This document shows positions 4,381-64,000 of a stretch of DNA of 64,000 nucleotides, one piece after another. This stretch comes from Aquisphaera giovannonii. GTDB lineage: Bacteria > Planctomycetota > Planctomycetia > Isosphaerales > Isosphaeraceae. A model generated the notes under the pieces. That model was not told the DNA's origin. It did not search any database and saw only the letters and a program-made list of their open reading frames with translations. Position numbers and translations under genes: made by a program. How positions within the stretch are numbered: the stretch's first letter is position 1; each line of letters starts with the position of its first letter. The stretch is from positions 5,952,001 through 6,016,000 of the forward strand of contig NZ_CP042997.1 of the NCBI RefSeq assembly GCF_008087625.1, given 5' to 3'.

Positions 4381-5097
4381 CTACGGGGCGGCGCCGGCCG
4401 CCCCCGCGGAAGCGGCCCGGATCGCGCGGGCCCAGCGCAGTCCGCACGGCGGCGTGTCCGGGCCGAAGACGAAATGCAGGACGCGGCGTCGCCCGCCCCC
4501 GGACGCCTTCGACGACGCGTGCAGCAGGAGCGGCCTCATCAGGAGGGCGGAGCCCCGGGGCGCCTCGCAGGCGACCTCGGGCAGGGCCTCGCGCGCCTCG
4601 AGGACGGCCGCGGGCTCGATCCGGCCCAGCCGGTGCGAGCCCGGGATGACGCGGAGGGGCCCGTCCTCCGGCCGGCATCCGTCGAGGTGCACCCGCACCG
4701 CCACGACCTGCTCGAGGAGGTCCACGGGCCCCTGCACGAAGAGGGATCCCTCCTTCTCCGACCACCCACGCAGGCCTTCGCCCTCGACCCGCTCGGCGAC
4801 CGGGACGCTCAGGTCCTGGTGGATGGGCACGAGCCAGTTGCGGGCCGACGACTTCTCGAAGTACGTGCACTGGATCGCGACGTGGCCCGACGGGATGAGC
4901 CCCGCCAGCGCAGGGTGCCCGCCCAGCCGGCCCGCCAGGTCGGCACACCAGGGCTCATCCAGCAGGCTACGCCTCCCGCCCGAGCCGTACTCCGCCCCGG
5001 GCACGATGCGATCGCCGATGGCCTCGCACTCCTCCGCCGCGAGCACGCCCGGGACCAGCAGGAAGCCCTGGGCCTCGAACAGGTCGAAGGTCGTCAT
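4381..5097 (-). CDS. Phytanoyl-CoA dioxygenase (PhyH)-family Fe(II)/2-oxoglutarate oxygenase
   Basis: 238 aa. A double-stranded beta-helix oxygenase that would hydroxylate a small molecule using Fe(II), O2 and 2-oxoglutarate. The N-terminus (FEAQGFLLVPGVL) is typical of PhyH. The iron-binding HxD is in IHQDLSVP; the distal His is probably in MRPLLLHASS, and Arg residues follow that could bind 2-oxoglutarate. The motif GPLRVIPGSHRLG is also characteristic. It starts 19 bases after the GH71/99-like gene and so is probably the third gene of that operon. Substrate unknown. Confidence 0.85.
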   Translation of the reverse strand: MTTFDLFEAQGFLLVPGVLAAEECEAIGDRIVPGAEYGSGGRRSLLDEPWCADLAGRLGGHPALAGLIPSGHVAIQCTYFEKSSARNWLVPIHQDLSVPVAERVEGEGLRGWSEKEGSLFVQGPVDLLEQVVAVRVHLDGCRPEDGPLRVIPGSHRLGRIEPAAVLEAREALPEVACEAPRGSALLMRPLLLHASSKASGGGRRRVLHFVFGPDTPPCGLRWARAIRAASAGAAGAAP

Positions 5098-5116
5098 GTC
5101 GCACCCTCCGTGGCGG

Positions 5117-7255
5117 CTACCGGCCGGCGGCCGGGAAGACCGCGCGGAAGTTGAAGCGGTCGTCGGGCGCGGCGTCGCCGTTGAGCGTGAAGTCGGACCA
5201 GTCGCCGGTCTCCTGGATGTTGTCGGCCCACTTGAAATCGAGCGAGGCGGGCGGCCGGGCGAGCCCGGGCGTGGACGGCGGCAGGGTCAGCTCGACCTCG
5301 CGAGCGCCGCGGGCGAAGGGGGCCTCGCCCGCGGTCTCCCAGCGATAGGCGCCGTCGACGTTGCGCTCGACGGTCGCCTTGCCGTCGCCCGTGCGGCGGG
5401 CGTTGACGCGGAGGTCGTAGCCGAGCCAGCCGGTCCTCGGGTCGTTGTCGGCGTCGACGAACAGCAGCATCCAGCGCGAGTCGGAAGGGGGCGACAGGTC
5501 CTCGCGGGCCCGGGCGTAGAACGAGACGCCGCCGGGGTCGACGCTGACCCGGGCGGAGGCGATGTCGTTGCGGCCGGTGTCGTTCCGGTAGTGCGGCGCC
5601 TTGCCCCAGCCGGCGTGGTCGCGATGCATAGGGTCGCCGACGGCGTCGCGGAAGTCGGGCTTAACCTCGGCCCAGTCGTCGAACCGGCCGTCGATCGCGA
5701 TCGGCCGCGAGGCGACGGGCGTGGCCTCGCGGACCCCCTTGAAGCGGCGGACGTTGGCGACGAGCTGGTAATAGTAGTTGTCGCCGTGGCCCCCCCTCAT
5801 GGGCTCGATGTCGCGGCTGAACTCCTGGTCGAACTCGTCGCAGAAGGTGACCGGGCCGGAGCCGGCGAGCGGGAAGGTCTGGTCGAACCGGCCGGCGATC
5901 CATTCGTTCCAGCCGGTCACGAAGACGACGGCCGGGTCGATCTCGAAGGCGCGCTTCCACTGCTCGGCGAAGTTCTTGCCAGAGCCGTCTCGGCCCTCCG
6001 GCCCGGGCTCCTCGCCGTCGTGGAAGCTCCGCCCGTGGGACCTCGGGTTGCTGAGCACACCGAGCTTGCCGTCCACCGCGTTCTCGGCCACGCCGACGGC
6101 CACCTGCTCGGGGACGCCCTCCTTCGCGTAGAAGGCGTGCTGCGGGTAGACCTCCAGCCACGACCATTGCCGCGGGCCGGTCGGGCCGACGAAGTAGTCC
6201 GGCTGCGGCTTCCGGAACGTGAAGGACTTCAGGATCCGCGCGGTCGCCTCGTCGTGCGGCCGGATCCGGAGCGTCCGGCTGCCGCCGCCCGCCCACCAGC
6301 CGACGCGGCCCTTGGGCTCGGACAGGGTCAACTCGTAGGCACCGCTCGGCAAGGGCTTGTCCAGCTCGATCATCGACCAGGCGTTGTCCTCGAGGCCCTC
6401 GAATCGTCGCGAGGCGATGGGCCCCCCGGCGCGTCCGGCCCGGTAGAGCGTCAGGGTGACGCCGGCGCCTCGGTCGCCCCAGGTCGGGGTGCAGGCGCCG
6501 ACGGCGTCGAAGGGCGATTCGGCGGTGAACGCCTGTGAGTGCGTCTGGCCCTGCCGGACCTCGTCCGGCCTGCCGTTGCGGCCCTTCTGGACATGGCGAC
6601 CGAGGAGGGCGGGGTCCGCCAGGATCAGCGGCCTGCCCTCCCACTCGAACCAGAGGTCGCGATACTGCCCCGGCTCGTACAGGTCGTGCCAGAGCTCGCG
6701 GACGACCTTCCCCGGGTCGCCGAAGGGGCAGAGGAAGCCGATCTTCGGCGCGGGGACGCCGTCCTTACGGGCCCGGTCGAAGACGCGACAGAGGGCCTTC
6801 CAGCTCGCCGGGTAGGTGACCTGGTTGGTGACGTCGAAGAAGACCGCGTCCACGCCCGCGTTGGCGAGCATCTGGGCGTGCTTCCGGAGCACGGCCTCGT
6901 CCTCCGAGACGTAGTGGCCGAAGATCGACTCGCCCCAGTGGTGCGGCGCCAGCATCGGCCCCCACGGCGGGCTGGTGGGCTTGCTCATCGCGGCCGGATC
7001 CTGGACCAGGATCCGGGAGATGTCGAACGGCCCGAGGTCGCCCGACTGGCCCAGCCAGAGGAAGTAGAACATCACGACCGTCTTGCCCGGGCGCGGCGGC
7101 CCGACCTCCTTCGCCGTCGGCAAGGACCGCCCGAGCGCGTCGGTCGCGGCCCAGGTGTCGCTGCCGAGGTCGGGAATGTCGTCGCCCGCGGCCATCCCCG
7201 CGGCCGACAGGGCCAGCCCGATGGCGAACCCGAGCAAGAGGCCGTGTCGATTCAT
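5117..7255 (-). CDS. Secreted GH71/GH99-like protein with C-terminal CBM9-like domain
   Basis: 712 aa. A Sec-type signal peptide (MNRHGLLLGFAIGLALSAAG) is followed by a TIM-barrel-like region resembling glycoside hydrolase families 71/99. Visible parts are VVMFYFLWLGQ near the start, HHWGESIFGHYVSEDE, AGVDAVFFDVTN, and later VVFVTGWNEWIAGRF. The last ~160 residues begin with PIAIDGRFDDWAEV, the entry signature of CBM9/DOMON-like carbohydrate-binding modules. A glycan-active periplasmic or surface enzyme is likely; the exact reaction is inferred only from family resemblance. It begins 29 bases after the sugar isomerase stop and ends 19 bases before the PhyH gene, an apparent three-gene operon. 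Confidence 0.8.
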   Translation of the reverse strand: MNRHGLLLGFAIGLALSAAGMAAGDDIPDLGSDTWAATDALGRSLPTAKEVGPPRPGKTVVMFYFLWLGQSGDLGPFDISRILVQDPAAMSKPTSPPWGPMLAPHHWGESIFGHYVSEDEAVLRKHAQMLANAGVDAVFFDVTNQVTYPASWKALCRVFDRARKDGVPAPKIGFLCPFGDPGKVVRELWHDLYEPGQYRDLWFEWEGRPLILADPALLGRHVQKGRNGRPDEVRQGQTHSQAFTAESPFDAVGACTPTWGDRGAGVTLTLYRAGRAGGPIASRRFEGLEDNAWSMIELDKPLPSGAYELTLSEPKGRVGWWAGGGSRTLRIRPHDEATARILKSFTFRKPQPDYFVGPTGPRQWSWLEVYPQHAFYAKEGVPEQVAVGVAENAVDGKLGVLSNPRSHGRSFHDGEEPGPEGRDGSGKNFAEQWKRAFEIDPAVVFVTGWNEWIAGRFDQTFPLAGSGPVTFCDEFDQEFSRDIEPMRGGHGDNYYYQLVANVRRFKGVREATPVASRPIAIDGRFDDWAEVKPDFRDAVGDPMHRDHAGWGKAPHYRNDTGRNDIASARVSVDPGGVSFYARAREDLSPPSDSRWMLLFVDADNDPRTGWLGYDLRVNARRTGDGKATVERNVDGAYRWETAGEAPFARGAREVELTLPPSTPGLARPPASLDFKWADNIQETGDWSDFTLNGDAAPDDRFNFRAVFPAAGR

Positions 7256-51750: not shown

Positions 51751-52782
51751 TCAGAACGGAACGATCCTCCGCAGGCCGTGCCCGATGACCACCGGATAGA
51801 GGGCGAGGTTCCGCGCCAGGGCCAGGGCGGGGGAGTAGTCCGGGGCGGGGGTCGGCTCGCCGCCACGGATCCGCGCCAGGGAGCGGGCCAGGGCCCGCAG
51901 GTGGGTCGGGCCGAACGGGCCGTCGTGGATGGCGCCGATCAGGGCCGCCGGGAGGGCGGAAGCGCCGTGCAGGGCCCCGAGCCACGCGCCGAGGATGGCC
52001 GCGTTGGAGTCGGTGTCGCCCCCCGCCCCGATGACCTCGGCCAGGGCGTGCAGCGGGTCCGATCCGTGTCGCAGCAGGCCGAAGGTGGCGAAGGGGACGC
52101 TGTGGACGACGAAGCCGGACGTGCCGCAGGCGGCCGCGGCCTCGGCGGTGCTCGCCCCGCGCAGGGCCAGGTCCCGGGCGCGATCGAGGGCCTCGCCCAG
52201 CGCGGGGACCGTGACGATGCGTCGGGCCCGTTCCTGGCAGGCCTCGGCGGGGGTGCCGGGTGGGAGGTCGGCGCAGGCGGCGGCGAGCTCGGCGACGTAG
52301 AGGGCGCCCTCGACGGCGCGCGGGTCGCGATGGGTGACCTCGGCGAGTGCGCGGCCGAATCGCTCCCGCTCGATCGGCCGGGCGTCGAAGAAACACCCGA
52401 CGACCGCCGCGCGCATGGCGGCCCCGTTCCCGGCGGACATCACGCCGCTGGGCCGCATCCCCAGGCCGATCCGGACGCAGGCGCGGACCGTCCCGAGCCC
52501 CACGCCCCAGGGCAGGCGCGCGAACCACCCGAGCAGCGAACGCCGGAAGGCTCGCACGCAACGCTCGACGTCGTCCGGATGCCGCGCCAGGCTCTGCGCG
52601 ACGAGTGCGGACTGCTCCGTGTCGTCGGAGACGAAGCCCGTCCGGCCCAGCAGATGGAACCGCTCCACCCGCCCGAACCTTCTCGCGATCGACCGGGCCG
52701 ACATGCCTTCGGCGGCCAGCCCGAGCGCATCGCCGAGCGCCGTGCCCAGCAGCGCCCCGGCGATCCGGTCTTCCTCCGCCAC
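51751..52782 (-). CDS. ADP-ribosylglycohydrolase (DraG/ARH family)
   Basis: 343 aa from a GTG at 52782 with GGAGGA upstream. It would remove ADP-ribose from proteins or nucleic acids. Metal-site motifs are GTALGDALGLAAEGM, SDDTEQSALV (the DDT near the N-terminus) and VIGAGGDTDSNAAILGAWLG. Helical throughout, as expected for the family. It is on the same strand as the riboswitch-controlled PEP-CTERM gene, 175 bases downstream of it. Whether it shares that transcript is unclear. Confidence 0.9.
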   Translation of the reverse strand: MAEEDRIAGALLGTALGDALGLAAEGMSARSIARRFGRVERFHLLGRTGFVSDDTEQSALVAQSLARHPDDVERCVRAFRRSLLGWFARLPWGVGLGTVRACVRIGLGMRPSGVMSAGNGAAMRAAVVGCFFDARPIERERFGRALAEVTHRDPRAVEGALYVAELAAACADLPPGTPAEACQERARRIVTVPALGEALDRARDLALRGASTAEAAAACGTSGFVVHSVPFATFGLLRHGSDPLHALAEVIGAGGDTDSNAAILGAWLGALHGASALPAALIGAIHDGPFGPTHLRALARSLARIRGGEPTPAPDYSPALALARNLALYPVVIGHGLRRIVPF

Positions 52783-52957
52783 GGCCGGGGATCCTCCGTT
52801 GCCCGCGAGCCTTCGACGCGACCTGCACGGGGCGGGACGCTCGCGATGTGCGGCACCTCCGTGCGGGACAAGGGCCCGGTCGGCCCCCATTCCACCACGG
52901 AGGTGCCTCGGTTTCCACCCGGGTCGGTGGGGCCCGCGCGGTGCGCGGCCCGGGCGG

Positions 52958-54622
52958 TCAGGCCCGACGGCGTCCGGCCGGGGTCCGCGCCAGGCGGGCC
53001 GCGCCGACGAGGCTCGCGGCGGAGAAGGCCATGGCCAGGCCCGCCGGCTCGGGGACGGCGGCCGCGTGGATGACGCCCACGCCCGACAGGTCGAAGCCGC
53101 CGGAGGCGAAGGGGGTGGAGAACGGGTCATTGATCAGGTGGCCCTGGGAGTCCCGCGTGCCGTAGCGCGGGTCGATCGAGCCGACGACGTCCGTGATCCG
53201 GACCTGGGTCACGCGGTTGACGTCCAGGAACGGGGAGACGCCGGCCAGCTCGGAGAGGTCGAAGCCGGTGCCGTAGCCGGCGACGTACTTGCCCGCCAGG
53301 TCGTGCAGGTTGCTGGCGTCCAGCGAGCCGAAGGCCCCGACCTGGGTGTCGGCCTGGGTCTCGGAGATCGACGGGAACCGGAAGAAGTGGACGCCGTCGG
53401 ACGAGACGTCCACGAAGGCCAGCTCCAGGTACGCCAGGCCGTTGCCACCGGAGAGGAACCCGTTCTCGAAGACCGCGAAGTCCGCCCCCGTACCGTTGGT
53501 GATCGGGGCGTCGAAGCCCAGCGTGATCGACCCGCCATCGCCCAGCGAGACGATGCCCCCGGCGGAGCCCAGCGCGTCGGTCGGCTGGCCGAACGACGCG
53601 AGCGGGCTGTTGGGGTTGCTGATGTCCTGCGGGCCGCGGGTGATCGAGACCACCGACGAGGCCCACTCCTGGAAAAGCGGGCTGCTCCGGGCGATGCCGA
53701 GCGAGCCCGCCTGCCCGACCTGCGGGGCGAAGCTCCCGGCGCGGGCCTCGAGGGCCGACGTCGCCAGCAGGACGCACGGCAGCAGGGCCGCGACCCGCCG
53801 CCGGGCCTTCAGCCCGAGGAGGCCGGCCAGGCCCAGGCCCATGAGGGCCAGGCCCGACGGCTCCGGGACCGCGGCCGCCGCCGTCGTGAACGTGAAGTCG
53901 TCGGCCGCGAAGTAGGCCGGCGTATTCACCCCGAAGGTCGGGTCGTCCTGGCTCGACTGGATGCCGAATTGCAGGACGGAGGAGCCGGCCAGCGAGGAGA
54001 GGTCGACGGTCTCCCAGGTGTTGACGATGTACCAGTCGTCCTTGTTGTCGCTCAGGAAGTTGGCGAGGTAGAAGTCGACGGTGCCGACGAGCTTGCCGGA
54101 CGCGTCGTAGCCGCGGACGTCCAGGAGCTGGTAATCGCCGTGCTCGAAGGCATGGGCGAAGCCGAAGGCGTCGCCGTCGCGCATGGTGTAGTACGCGTAG
54201 GCCGTGTTGGTGATCGCGATCGAGTCCGGCGTCGCCCCGGGGGCCAGGGTGATGGTCGTCCCGGCCGGGTGGAAGGGGTCGGTGTCCCCGCCGAACGTGA
54301 AGCCGACCGCGTAGGCCTTCGAGCCGTCCGCGCCCCCGCCGGTGATGGAGCTGTACTGGTTGGTGAAGGACGGGTCCGTCTTGTCGGTCATCGCGGACAG
54401 CGACCACCCGGACCAGATGCCGCCGAACGACGGGGAGAAGCTGTTGTTGTAGGCGTTGCCGTCGATCGTGAAATGGCCGCCGGGGCCGGCGTCGTTCACG
54501 TACGTGCCGGCCGCCAGGCCGAGGTCGTCGAACGTGGACGTCACCGTGCCGGCGCGTGAGGCGGATGCGGAGGCGAGGCCGAGCGTGAGGATCGCTGCGA
54601 GCGCAGCGCGAGCGTGGCGCAT
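52958..54622 (-). CDS. Double PEP-CTERM surface protein with DUF4465-like first module
   Basis: 554 aa. Signal peptide ARAALAAILTLGLASASASR. Residues ~30-250 match the DUF4465 pattern: TFDDLGLAAGTYVNDAG, WSGWSLSAMTDKTDPSFTNQ, GADGSKAYAVGFTFGGDTDP, DGDAFGFAHAFEHGDYQLLD, TPAYFAADDFTF. A full PEP-CTERM signal follows (AAAVPEPSGLALMGLGLAGL then KARRR). Without a stop comes a second signal-like helix (VAALLPCVLLATSALEARAG), a second surface domain (~300-520) and a second signal (AAAVPEPAGLAMAFSAASLV, then ARTPAGRRRA). It looks like two genes fused in frame. A cobalamin riboswitch lies upstream. DUF4465 proteins occur in B12 loci elsewhere, so corrinoid binding is inferred. Confidence 0.8.
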   Translation of the reverse strand: MRHARAALAAILTLGLASASASRAGTVTSTFDDLGLAAGTYVNDAGPGGHFTIDGNAYNNSFSPSFGGIWSGWSLSAMTDKTDPSFTNQYSSITGGGADGSKAYAVGFTFGGDTDPFHPAGTTITLAPGATPDSIAITNTAYAYYTMRDGDAFGFAHAFEHGDYQLLDVRGYDASGKLVGTVDFYLANFLSDNKDDWYIVNTWETVDLSSLAGSSVLQFGIQSSQDDPTFGVNTPAYFAADDFTFTTAAAAVPEPSGLALMGLGLAGLLGLKARRRVAALLPCVLLATSALEARAGSFAPQVGQAGSLGIARSSPLFQEWASSVVSITRGPQDISNPNSPLASFGQPTDALGSAGGIVSLGDGGSITLGFDAPITNGTGADFAVFENGFLSGGNGLAYLELAFVDVSSDGVHFFRFPSISETQADTQVGAFGSLDASNLHDLAGKYVAGYGTGFDLSELAGVSPFLDVNRVTQVRITDVVGSIDPRYGTRDSQGHLINDPFSTPFASGGFDLSGVGVIHAAAVPEPAGLAMAFSAASLVGAARLARTPAGRRRA

Positions 54623-55049
54623 GGGGATGCGTTCTCCTTCCTTCAGGATGAATGGGATCTCTTGGATGGCGGGGCGAGCGTTCGTTCGTCGCGGCGACCA
54701 CGGCGCGCAGCACCGCACGGGCTCGCGAGCGGGGCGGCGTCTCGCGACGCACGGCTCGAGGGGCTCACGCGGGGGCGACCGGTCCGTCGCGCGGGGCGAT
54801 CAGCCCCGGGCAAGGGGCCCCGGGCGGCGACGAGGTCGGTGTGACGGCCGCGGCGGGCCGGTGCGATCGGCGGGCGGGCCGCCCGGATCGGCGAGACTGG
54901 GGCCCTGGCGGGCGGGCGTGGGGCGGAGCACGGGGGGTGCGGTCCTTTCCGTGGCCATGCGCTCGCGGCCTTCGGGAAGGGCACCTGCGCGGACGTGGCG
55001 CGCCGGAACATGCCCCCCGATGCTTTAGGCCGAAGCATCGCATGGGTGT

Positions 55050-55218
55050 CCCGTCGGGCCGTATTCTGGCTCGCGAGTCAATCGGTCCCGGACGCCTTCC
55101 CGCGGGCGCTCGGCTCGCAGTGGCATGCTGTCCGGGGACCATCCTCGCTCACAGCGGCGGTCCCGCGCCGGATTCTCACCGGCTTCCTGCCCGGCCTTGC
55201 GGCCGGGCGCCCGACGGG
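55050..55218 (-). ncRNA. Cobalamin (vitamin B12) riboswitch
   Basis: A 169-base minus-strand element closed by a perfect 10-bp helix, CCCGTCGGGC with GCCCGACGGG. Inside, in order: a GNRA-capped hairpin (GCCCGGCC-GCAA-GGCCGGGC), the conserved core GGTGAGAATCCGG (55168-55180) then CCGCCGCTGTGA, the B12 box GCCACTG (55118-55124), GGGAAGGCG and GAGCCAGAATACGG. Together these are diagnostic of the cobalamin aptamer. It would turn its downstream gene off when cobalamin is bound. No canonical terminator with a T-tract follows, so the control mode is unclear. Confidence 0.92.
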
Positions 55219-55228
55219 CATGGCAGGG

Positions 55229-55258
55229 ATACTACAACGCCCCGCGTGGCCGAGTCAA
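55229..55258 (-). promoter_or_regulatory. Sigma-70-like promoter of the cobalamin-riboswitch transcript
   Basis: On the minus strand: -35 TTGACT (55253-55258), an 18-base spacer, then -10 TAGTAT (55229-55234). The predicted start, about 7 bases further at ~55222, lies just before the first riboswitch helix at 55218. The fit in both sequence and position is good. Confidence 0.7.
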
Positions 55259-55509
55259 TGGGGCACGGCTCGGGAGGTTACATCGGAATGATATGAACAA
55301 GATTAACAGATGATAAAAAATAGAAGTCGAGCCCGGGCCGTGCGGCCGGGCCTCCCCCGGGCACGGACGCCCCGTCGCGCCGTCACGCCCTGCCGGGCGT
55401 CCGCCCCGGCACGTCGAGGGGCGGGCCCGGAGTCGCACCCGCTCGCCCCCCGGGACGAAGCTCGCCCTTGCGGCCCGGGATCCCCGGGGCTAGAATCGCG
55501 ACCACGTAT

Positions 55510-61376: not shown

Positions 61377-63659
61377 TCAGGCCGTGAACGTCCCGGAGAC
61401 GTCGTTGCTGTTCGTGGAGGCGGTGTTCCCGGTGGGCGTCGCGTCGTCGATGACCGCGACGCCGCCGGTGGCCAGGTTGAGGCCGCCGCCCACGCCCTGG
61501 CCGGCCGTCCCGGCCGCGCCGGCCCTGCCCGGGAAGGCCGTGCCGGCCTTGCCGTTCGGGATGCCGCCGGTCCCGACGAGGATGGTGCCCGCCGAGCCGC
61601 CGGCCCCGCCGGCCGCGAGCGTCGCCTGATTGCCGCTGATGACGTCCGTCGCCCTGGACTGCTTGGAGTTCTTCTTCGTCCCCAGCCGCGGGGCGATCGT
61701 CAGGTTGCCGGTCGCCGCGTTGAAGGCGCCGCCTCCCAGGCCCGAGCCGCCGGCCCCGCCGTTGCCGCCGTTGCCGCCGATGCCGTTGCCGCCGTCGCCG
61801 CCGACCTTCCCGTTGGCGCCATTTCCGCCCTTGCCGAGGCCGCCGTTGCCGGCGACCGTGCCGGCGCCGCCGGCGGCCAGGTTGTTCGTGATGTTGACGG
61901 TGATCCCGGTGAAGGTCGCCGCGCCGGCGTTGAAGATCGCGCCGCCGCTCCCGTTGGCCCCCGCGCCGCCGCCGCCGCCCAGGCCGCCGGCGCCGAAGCC
62001 GCCGGCGCCGCCGGCACCGTTGGTGCTACCCCGGCCGCCGTCGGCGCCGAAGTCGCTGGCGCCCGAGCCGCCGGTGCCGCCGGCGCCGCCGCCGGCCCGG
62101 TTGCCCGAGAAGGCGCTGGCCGCCGGGGGCTTCGACGGCTTCTGGGCCCGGAACGCGACGGTGCCGCCGGAGGCGTTGAAGAGCGCCCCGCCGTTGCCGC
62201 CGCCGCCGTTGCCGCCGTCCCCGCCGATCCCGATCAGGAACGAGATGGCGGTACCCCCGTCGCCGCCGACGCCGTTGTTGGGCGTCCCGACCCCGCCATC
62301 GGCCGCCAGGGCCAGGGCGCCGAGCCCGCCGTTGCCGCCGGCGCCGCCGACCGCCGCGTTCGCGGAAAGATCCAGGGCGGACGTATTCAGGAACGTGCCG
62401 CCGCCGCCGTTGAAGACCGCACCGCCGCTCGCGTTCCCGCCGCGGCCGCCCAGGGCGCCCGACCCGGCGACCGCGATGCCGCCCGGGCCGCCGTTCCCGC
62501 CCGCCGAGCCGTTGCCGCCGAGCCCCGACGTGCCCGTCCCGCCCGAGCCCCCGACGCCGCCGGCCCCGCCGCCGGCCTGGTTGCCCCCCAGGGAGCCCGA
62601 TTTCCCGCTCGCCGAGGCCGAGCCGAGGTTGAACAGGCCGCCGCCGTCCCCCTCGCCGCCGTTGCCCGCGGCCCCGCCGTTGCCGCCGGTCCCGGAGCCC
62701 CCGCCGCCGCCGTTCCCGCCGCCGACGGTGCTGCCCCCCTTGCCGCCGGTGCCGAAGCCGCCGGCGCCACCCTTGCCGCCGAGCCCGCCCCGGGCGACGT
62801 TGGAGCCGATCGACGTCCCGGTCAGGGAGAGGCTGGCCCCGGCCGCGTTGAAGATCCCGCCGCCCTGGCCCTGGCCGCCGGCCCCGCCGTTGCCCCCCGC
62901 CCCGCCCTTGGCGTCCTGGCCGGCGAGGCCGGCGCCGCCGTTGGCGCCCGTGCCGTCCCCGCCGCGGCCGCCGGCGCCGCCGTCCCCGCCGATCGCCTGG
63001 TTCGACGCGATGATGCCGCCGGAGATCGAGAGCGAGCCGGCCGCGTTGAAGATCCCGCCGCCGGCGGCGTTCGACCCGTTCGCGCCGTTGCCGCCGGCCG
63101 TGCCGTTCACGCCGTTCGCCCCCGCCGCGCCGGCGGCGCCCGCGTTCCCGACGGCGAGGTTGTTCGCGACGGCCACCGAGGAGAGCGACACCCGGCCGCC
63201 GGAGTTCAGCAGCCCGCCGCCGGTGCCGGCGCGGCCGTGCTGGATCGTCAGCTTCGAGATCGACACCTTCCCGCCGAGGACCTGGATCACCCGGTCCAGG
63301 TTGTTGCCGTCGATGACGGTGCTCCCGGCGCCCTTCCCCTTGATCGTGAGGTTGTCGTTGATGTCCAGGTCGCCCGTCGCCGAGGCGTCCTCGTCGGCCC
63401 CGGGCCGCGTCAGCGTGAATGTGCCGGAGGGCAGGATGATGGTGTTGTTCCCGCCCCGGGCGTTGGCCGCCTGGATGGCCGAGCGCAAGGAGATCTGCCC
63501 GTTGGCATCCTTCCCCTTCTTCAGGTCCACCGCCACCGTGTCCAGCGTCGTGTTGACCTTGAACGTGGAGAGCAGGGCACGCTCCTCCAGGACCTGAACC
63601 CCCGGCCGGAGCCGCACCACCTGCCTCTTGCCCGCCCGCCGAGACGCATTGTTGATCAT
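61377..63659 (-). CDS. Giant glycine-rich exported protein with LEERALLS motif
   Basis: 760 aa from MINNASRRAGKRQVVRLRPG. The N-terminus carries VQVLEERALLS, a motif common at the start of large planctomycete surface proteins. Residues ~35-170 resemble the choice-of-anchor/right-handed beta-helix type (LRSAIQAANARGGNNTIILP, GSTVIDGNNLDRVIQVLGG). After that come ~550 residues of Gly/Ala/Asn repeats (GGNGGAGGQGQGG and similar), interrupted every 60-90 residues by beta-helix-like rungs such as GGIFNAAGASLSLTGTSIGS. Export is likely. A structural or adhesive surface role is inferred from composition. The long proline-rich frame opposite is its shadow. Confidence 0.8.
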   Translation of the reverse strand: MINNASRRAGKRQVVRLRPGVQVLEERALLSTFKVNTTLDTVAVDLKKGKDANGQISLRSAIQAANARGGNNTIILPSGTFTLTRPGADEDASATGDLDINDNLTIKGKGAGSTVIDGNNLDRVIQVLGGKVSISKLTIQHGRAGTGGGLLNSGGRVSLSSVAVANNLAVGNAGAAGAAGANGVNGTAGGNGANGSNAAGGGIFNAAGSLSISGGIIASNQAIGGDGGAGGRGGDGTGANGGAGLAGQDAKGGAGGNGGAGGQGQGGGIFNAAGASLSLTGTSIGSNVARGGLGGKGGAGGFGTGGKGGSTVGGGNGGGGGSGTGGNGGAAGNGGEGDGGGLFNLGSASASGKSGSLGGNQAGGGAGGVGGSGGTGTSGLGGNGSAGGNGGPGGIAVAGSGALGGRGGNASGGAVFNGGGGTFLNTSALDLSANAAVGGAGGNGGLGALALAADGGVGTPNNGVGGDGGTAISFLIGIGGDGGNGGGGNGGALFNASGGTVAFRAQKPSKPPAASAFSGNRAGGGAGGTGGSGASDFGADGGRGSTNGAGGAGGFGAGGLGGGGGAGANGSGGAIFNAGAATFTGITVNITNNLAAGGAGTVAGNGGLGKGGNGANGKVGGDGGNGIGGNGGNGGAGGSGLGGGAFNAATGNLTIAPRLGTKKNSKQSRATDVISGNQATLAAGGAGGSAGTILVGTGGIPNGKAGTAFPGRAGAAGTAGQGVGGGLNLATGGVAVIDDATPTGNTASTNSNDVSGTFTA

Positions 63660-64000
63660 CGAACTCCCCCCGACCGGTACGAAGAGGCATCCGCCCGCGG
63701 GGCGAGATCTACGCGATTCCCGCGGGCCAATGGATGCGGTGGAGATGAAACCTACAGATGCGGCGCCCCTCGCAAGTGGCGTCGCCGGGACCATACGAGC
63801 CATCAGGGAAAGGCCCCGCAGCCCGATGCAAGATCCCGATCTTCGCGGGGTTATCGCCGGGGCGGGGGCCGGCGGACGGGAAAACGGGGGCGGCCGATCG
63901 CGCGGGGCCTCGCGCGTGGTGCGGGCGAGGGCCTCGGGCCCGGTGGCGGGAGGCGGCGAACCGCCGATGTTTCCTCGGCCCGGGGTCAGACCTTGTCCAC
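63660..64000. other. Window end, no gene seen
   Basis: 341 bases upstream of the glycine-rich gene. It should contain that gene's promoter. The last 14 bases could be the 3' end of a minus-strand gene (codons for VDKV and a TGA), but this is too short to support. Confidence 0.4.

Follow-up and report, generated by a model that had tools for sequence, protein, structure and literature searches.

A single open reading frame of Aquisphaera giovannonii encodes two PEP-CTERM-type surface modules in tandem, termed J and S here, and we lean, with somewhat better than even confidence, towards the view that it represents a B12-regulated capture fusion of BtuJ-BtuH-like type whose product would be cut into two separately sorted proteins, both the vitamin binding and the cuts being predicted. 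The B12-capture reading is based on the riboswitch that precedes the gene, the DUF4465 affiliation of the first half, the BtuH-like model of the second half, the linkage of S to riboswitches in other genomes and the parallel fusions encountered in Bacteroidota.

Organisation of the fused gene

The gene occupies positions 52958-54622 of the window (the whole 64-kb stretch of DNA that was analysed). These coordinates were correct in the initial annotation, which however left the strand unsaid: the gene is read on the minus strand, from 54622 to 52958. A plus-strand reading of 52958-54622 was dropped as the frame found there is unrelated and contains a stop. The features of the locus, all on the minus strand, are as follows.

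55288..55316, minus: sigma-70-like promoter match TTATCA-17-TATCAT (consensus only)
55229..55258, minus: sigma-70-like promoter match TTGACT-18-TAGTAT, which abuts the riboswitch (consensus only)
55040..55229, minus: cobalamin riboswitch RF00174 (71.3 bits)
54634..54643, minus: Shine-Dalgarno-like AAGGAAGGAG, located 11 bases upstream of the first ATG (from sequence)
52958..54622, minus: fused gene, 554 aa, stop included (one open reading frame)
54551..54622, minus: N-terminal signal peptide-like segment, residues 1-24 (hydropathy, end by eye)
53882..54550, minus: module J, DUF4465/BtuJ B12-binding domain, residues 25-247 (PF14717)
53795..53872, minus: internal PEP-CTERM with PEP motif, helix and basic ARRR, residues 251-276 (TIGR02595 and Pfam)
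53840..53842, minus: ATG within the frame, residue 261 (unlikely as a start)
53738..53794, minus: signal peptide-like helix inside the chain, residues 277-295, with Ala-Arg-Ala before Gly at its end (hydropathy, alignment)
53066..53737, minus: module S, BtuH-like domain, residues 296-519 (AF2 model, structure matches)
52961..53056, minus: terminal PEP-CTERM-like tail, residues 523-554 (PEP motif, helix and RRR recognised by eye)

Domain and hydropathy matches bear out the earlier description of a single frame holding two complete PEP-CTERM proteins, together with the order of modules, the terminal PEP-CTERM being the weaker of the two. Hydropathy at the N-terminus peaks at 1.85 over residues 7-21 of a segment that ends, as judged by eye, in Ser-Arg-Ala before Gly. 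The internal PEP-CTERM scores 21 bits against TIGR02595 (cut-off 16) and 25.6 bits against Pfam (cut-off 20.7), and is positioned at residues 251-276 of 554, away from the extreme C-terminus that is usual for exosortase substrates. Its Arg-Arg-Arg tail leads directly into the second hydrophobic helix, which has a peak hydropathy of 2.27 at residues 277-291 and corresponds, in the alignment, to the signal peptides at the N-terminus of stand-alone relatives. The terminal signal is located at the extreme C-terminus, but its 13.5 bits fall below the Pfam cut-off of 20.7. Four matches to the exosortase family PF09721 exceed the cut-off in the A. giovannonii genome, two of them strong. The AF2 model of the full-length protein is poor (pLDDT 63.7) and says little on topology, although it contains, at low confidence, helices at 257-270 and 274-292 that are compatible with a hairpin.

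The fusion is shared with Aquisphaera insulae

A search with the whole protein, covering 59 genomes (that of A. giovannonii and relatives), returned one other full-length match, in Aquisphaera insulae JC669, which is 69% identical over residues 1-554 and stop-free. No indel separates the two species between the PEP motif and the second domain, and GC3 is 1.00 in windows over codons 241-310 of the A. giovannonii gene; the junction of A. insulae has values of 0.87-0.90. The in-frame fusion is real and more than a product of chance, since a second genome carries it stop-free, with no junction indel and with continuous GC3. The two fusions differ by a dS of approximately 0.60, with dN/dS values of 0.29 for J, 0.34 for S and 0.75 for the junction. 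The second helix has a dN/dS of 1.12, a value that comprises only 17 codons, and in both species it has kept its hydrophobicity and an Ala-x-Ala motif; free variation with retention of these properties is typical of signal peptides.

These data make a sequencing or assembly artefact, in which a stop or frameshift was missed, extremely improbable: the layout is odd, and another single-frame case (G287, described below) is absent from its sister species, yet the junction is shared by the second species, lacks an indel and displays a continuous codon pattern, which largely refutes an artefact.

Among 45 genomes of the family (including A. giovannonii itself), 29 match the protein at E 1e-10 and two carry the fusion, both of them Aquisphaera, while the third member of the genus (G001) contains neither half at that threshold. 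In the other family loci inspected, J and S are encoded by individual genes, most of which specify both a signal peptide and a PEP-CTERM; J copies at two loci (L049 and L050) are without the PEP-CTERM tail. Across the family, the halves are separate in the other matching genomes and fused in A. insulae. The loss of a stop codon, which had been put forward as an origin, agrees with these separate halves, as would a small deletion; a merely recent stop loss or a sequencing error does not, since the fusion is common to two species approximately 0.6 synonymous changes per site apart. A plasmid search gave one weak match.

The ATG at 53842 does correspond to residue 261 and lies within the first PEP-CTERM helix, as previously described, and it is the sole in-frame ATG, GTG or TTG in residues 250-320. 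That it starts a second protein appears unlikely because no close Shine-Dalgarno-like sequence was found upstream of it, whereas AAGGAAGGAG precedes the first ATG, the only one of the two with a strong ribosome-site match. More generally, separate translation of two proteins, the second starting within the frame, is in our estimation quite improbable: stand-alone S genes do begin with such a signal peptide and in A. insulae the second one begins exactly at an ATG, but A. giovannonii has GTC at this position, its nearest in-frame start being ATG 261 inside the PEP helix.

Two further observations were made in this neighbourhood. Directly after the A. insulae fused gene (L039:5323-6529) there is a second riboswitch with a solo DUF4465 PEP-CTERM gene that has 66% identity to the J module of the window. 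A large glycine-rich frame is present near the A. giovannonii locus (approximately 61377-63803 of the window, minus strand), and A. insulae contains two similar tandem frames upstream of its fused gene.

Module J belongs to the DUF4465/BtuJ family

PF14717 matches residues 67-243 with 175.6 bits (cut-off 25, E 1.6e-51), and the best solved relative of J is 9hmu, the D5EK51-B12 complex (phmmer E 6.1e-19). J was modelled only within the full-length model of pLDDT 63.7, and the known fold of the family is an augmented beta-jellyroll. The planctomycetes include Mucisphaera calidilacus. A protein of this organism is among the DUF4465 members shown to bind B12, eight distant members having been reported to do so, and the family is named BtuJ in B. 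theta (PMC13398666, PMC12751083). According to the available text of the former, an HI loop of sequence GTPAYF or NTPAYF, with its tyrosine, constitutes the conserved B12-binding motif of DUF4465 (PMC13398666); J retains this loop as NTPAYF at residues 233-238, tyrosine included. By its sequence, J is a member of DUF4465/BtuJ and, as for the family, a predicted B12 binder.

Module S resembles BtuH in fold

No Pfam family matches S, and among 18 of its relatives compared with Pfam a PEP-CTERM tail was detected in 14, the only other matches being to two stray weak families. The AF2 model of S, built on 52 sequences, is confident (pLDDT 96.3, pTM 0.93). Foldseek placed BtuG1 first (8blw, E 1.2e-4) and BtuH2 second (7biz, E 4.7e-3), and VIA-align gave 7biz_A a Z of 14.5 (rmsd 3.8, 162 residues aligned, 20% identity) and 8blw_B a Z of 13.2 (169 residues, all within the H domain of BtuG1), the next entry being unrelated with a Z of 11.2. 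In three profile searches with S, the BtuG1 H domain was the top PDB match at marginal E values of 0.0023, 0.014 and 0.0046 over part of the domain; 7biz itself was not recovered by these sequence searches. The residues of BtuH2 that contact B12 are Asn399, Gln333, His476, Tyr510, Trp511 and Trp577; the invariant Asn in the FEN motif of S has an Asn of BtuG1 as its counterpart in the alignment. Since both structure comparisons rank BtuH2 and BtuG1 highest while the sequence signal is marginal, we conclude that, among the solved structures searched, the BtuH fold suits the S model best, membership by sequence being tentative.

Riboswitch linkage of S and its pairing with J

The initial annotation was sound with regard to anatomy, but overlooked the cobalamin riboswitch and the B12 theme that unites the two halves. 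RF00174 is situated directly upstream of the fused gene on the same strand, where it covers the full model (1-189) at E 1.4e-15 (gathering threshold 31.5), and is the only Rfam match within the window. A promoter consensus scan of 52400-55500 identified the two sites listed above, against 0.0 (sd 0.2) in shuffles. The only other cobalamin riboswitch found in the A. giovannonii genome (96.5 bits; L061, G000:C1:4384000-4402000, 4931-5131, plus strand) precedes a prepilin-like frame (L061 5081-6235, FTLIELLVVIAIIAVLIALLLPAVQ), where regulation by B12 is surprising.

A cobalamin riboswitch is present in each of 20 planctomycete loci, all picked for matching the fused protein, ten of them with S alone, three with J alone and seven with both (a weak J match in L042, at E 7e-5 and apparently unrelated, was counted as absent). 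A contig scan with S confirmed at least 554 relatives, of which 80 from named genomes were kept, mainly from Bacteroidota and additionally from Verrucomicrobiota and Planctomycetota. When 19 of the riboswitches were combined into a model, this gave 73 matches in 71 of these 80 loci (80 of at least 554), all on the strand of S, or in 68 of 77 once L063, L064 and L071, which correspond to sequences used in model building, are set aside; no match was obtained in L081, L089, L091, L098, L112, L126, L128, L133 or L138. This linkage also bears on the possibility that S is a CBM32-like sugar-binding or structural domain residing in B12-regulated loci, which would be compatible with the other readings of processing. 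CBM32-type folds reach Z values of 9-11 against the S model and the sequence link to BtuH is marginal, but in both structure comparisons the top-scoring entries are BtuH2 and the H domain of BtuG1, which also cover the most residues, and the riboswitch accompanies S in the great majority of the retained loci; we regard a CBM32-like identity as unlikely.

J was present in 34 of the 80 S stretches (80 of at least 554), always on the same strand and mostly upstream of S. Both modules share one frame in four of the 80 (80 of at least 554), namely in A. insulae (L064) and in the Bacteroidota loci L088, L093 and L135. The order is J-S in L088 and S-J in L093 and L135, which are alike and perhaps derive from one event; on our reading of these sequences the fusion of J and S would have arisen at least three times. 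In the Bacteroidota fusions the mature domains are joined without internal signals, and two of the three end in a Por secretion tail above the Pfam cut-off. For B. theta it has been proposed that BtuJ passes B12 on to BtuH (PMC12751083, available text); such a transfer would require joint action, and the recurrent fusion of J and S speaks for the two modules working together.

Two candidate fusions were set aside. In G287, a planctomycete of another family, a frame downstream of a cobalamin riboswitch (L162:6701-8854; 800 aa open, 718 codons from its ATG) encodes S with a PEP-like tail, followed by a linker, a signal-like helix and J; it was dropped as a firm second signal-bearing fusion owing to the linker GC3 of 0.37-0.5 and the two separate frames of its sister G478. 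A 684-aa frame with both halves in G455 was discarded as direct translation yields separate frames. Other arrangements were also noted: a tandem pair of DUF4465 modules within a single frame of a member of the Flavobacteriales (L094:3375-5114), and three fusions of S to repeated modules bearing a WVGxGS-like motif (L087:6483-8915, L092:7125-8927 and L141:2238-9404), one in a frame of approximately 2389 aa and all downstream of cobalamin riboswitches. The WVGxGS-like module is perhaps a further domain of B12 loci.

B12 use and import in the host

The A. giovannonii genome (10.5 Mb, 99.94% complete) encodes MetH (PF02965). Pfam searches of the whole genome revealed no CbiC (PF02570), no TonB plug (PF07715) and no FecCD/BtuC permease (PF01032), and a single Peripla_BP_2 protein (PF01497) that falls below all listed NCBIfam cut-offs, including that of BtuF. 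In 14 control genomes the same models matched in 7 (PF02965), 7 (PF02570), 3 (PF07715), 13 (PF01032) and 13 (PF01497) cases. This suggests that A. giovannonii is a B12 user lacking a standard importer, the search extending to the plug, FecCD and PF01497 families.

Discussion

Under the processing that we favour, B12 scarcity would cause the riboswitch to permit expression of the mRNA, and one ribosome would produce one chain with two different predicted B12-binding modules, J and S. The chain would be exported by Sec; the first PEP-CTERM helix would act as a stop-transfer element, its arginines remaining cytoplasmic, and the helix that follows would restart transfer in the manner of a signal peptide. 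Signal peptidase I would then most likely cut after Ala295, thereby freeing S, while exosortase would process each PEP-CTERM. The outcome would be two separately sorted B12 catchers, supplied in equal amounts from one frame. B12 binding by this particular protein, the membrane topology and both cuts are the parts that we infer.

The main rival accepts the same B12-capture fusion but leaves it uncut, as a two-headed protein whose modules flank a membrane hairpin of two helices, comparable to BtuGH but looped through the membrane. Two-module B12 proteins are known in the form of BtuGH (PMC12751083, PMC10404256, in the text available), and the Bacteroidota J-S and S-J fusions, being without internal signals, indicate that permanent joining can be functional. 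Moreover, in the available text of Haft and colleagues, the few PEP-CTERM signals that lie far from the C-terminus are considered possibly non-functional (PMC1569441), and the internal signal may accordingly be dead. On the other hand, the second helix maintains its signal-peptide character and Ala-x-Ala in both species, beyond what a membrane loop would need, and we consider an uncut protein possible but rather unlikely.

The cleaved fusion may be taken a step further, to a vitamin-capture polyprotein in which signal peptidase and exosortase cut in mid-chain, the BtuJ-type module hands B12 over to the BtuH-type module and the vitamin enters by an undescribed import route; the last element would follow from the presence of MetH where CbiC, a TonB plug and a FecCD/BtuC permease were not seen. 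We hold this fuller scheme to be doubtful as a whole.

The individual parts are of known kinds, while their combination with export and sorting signals inside the chain was not found in the literature searched. That search, judged by titles and parts of papers and covering few subscription papers, revealed no such internal-signal combination, no single BtuJ-BtuH chain and no planctomycete BtuH-like domains; by title, queries on internal signal peptides and polyproteins led to viruses only and those on PEP-CTERM and vitamin B12 to nothing on such a fusion, and nothing was found for Planctomycetes with B12 riboswitches or for DUF4465 with Planctomyc. Among known systems, BtuGH of Bacteroides thetaiotaomicron (BtuG1, BT_1490) is similarly a riboswitch-controlled chain of two B12 modules, one of them BtuH (PMC10404256, PMC12751083, available text), but there the partner is the BtuG beta-propeller rather than BtuJ, and the protein is a lipoprotein with a plain linker devoid of internal export or sorting signals. 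J falls by sequence with BtuJ1, BtuJ2 and D5EK51, whereas the studied DUF4465 members are single-module proteins and more than 70% are predicted lipoproteins according to the available text (PMC13398666), the protein described here being a PEP-CTERM fusion. BtuH2 (BT_1956) is the closest known fold to S and shares its regulatory setting, but its identity is approximately 20% over 162 aligned residues; S is without the N-terminal PKD domains, and PEP-CTERM replaces the lipid anchor. The FbcH cytochrome b/c1 precursor of Bradyrhizobium is a bacterial polyprotein with a signal peptide inside the chain as its presumed cleavage site, although it gives rise to respiratory membrane proteins and is without PEP-CTERM. 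ZepA of Anabaena is likewise a PEP-CTERM exoprotein that rises in micronutrient scarcity and aids uptake, but is a single-domain, Zur-controlled protein concerned with zinc (PMC10957091, available text).

The present analysis provides a predicted function for a gene otherwise recognisable only by its DUF4465 domain and a surface domain that has no name, and would extend BtuH-like B12 proteins, with their riboswitch link, to Planctomycetota and Verrucomicrobiota. The signals in mid-chain represent a clean test case for exosortase and signal peptidase acting internally, and the missing TonB plug and BtuC permease raise the question of how planctomycetes import B12.
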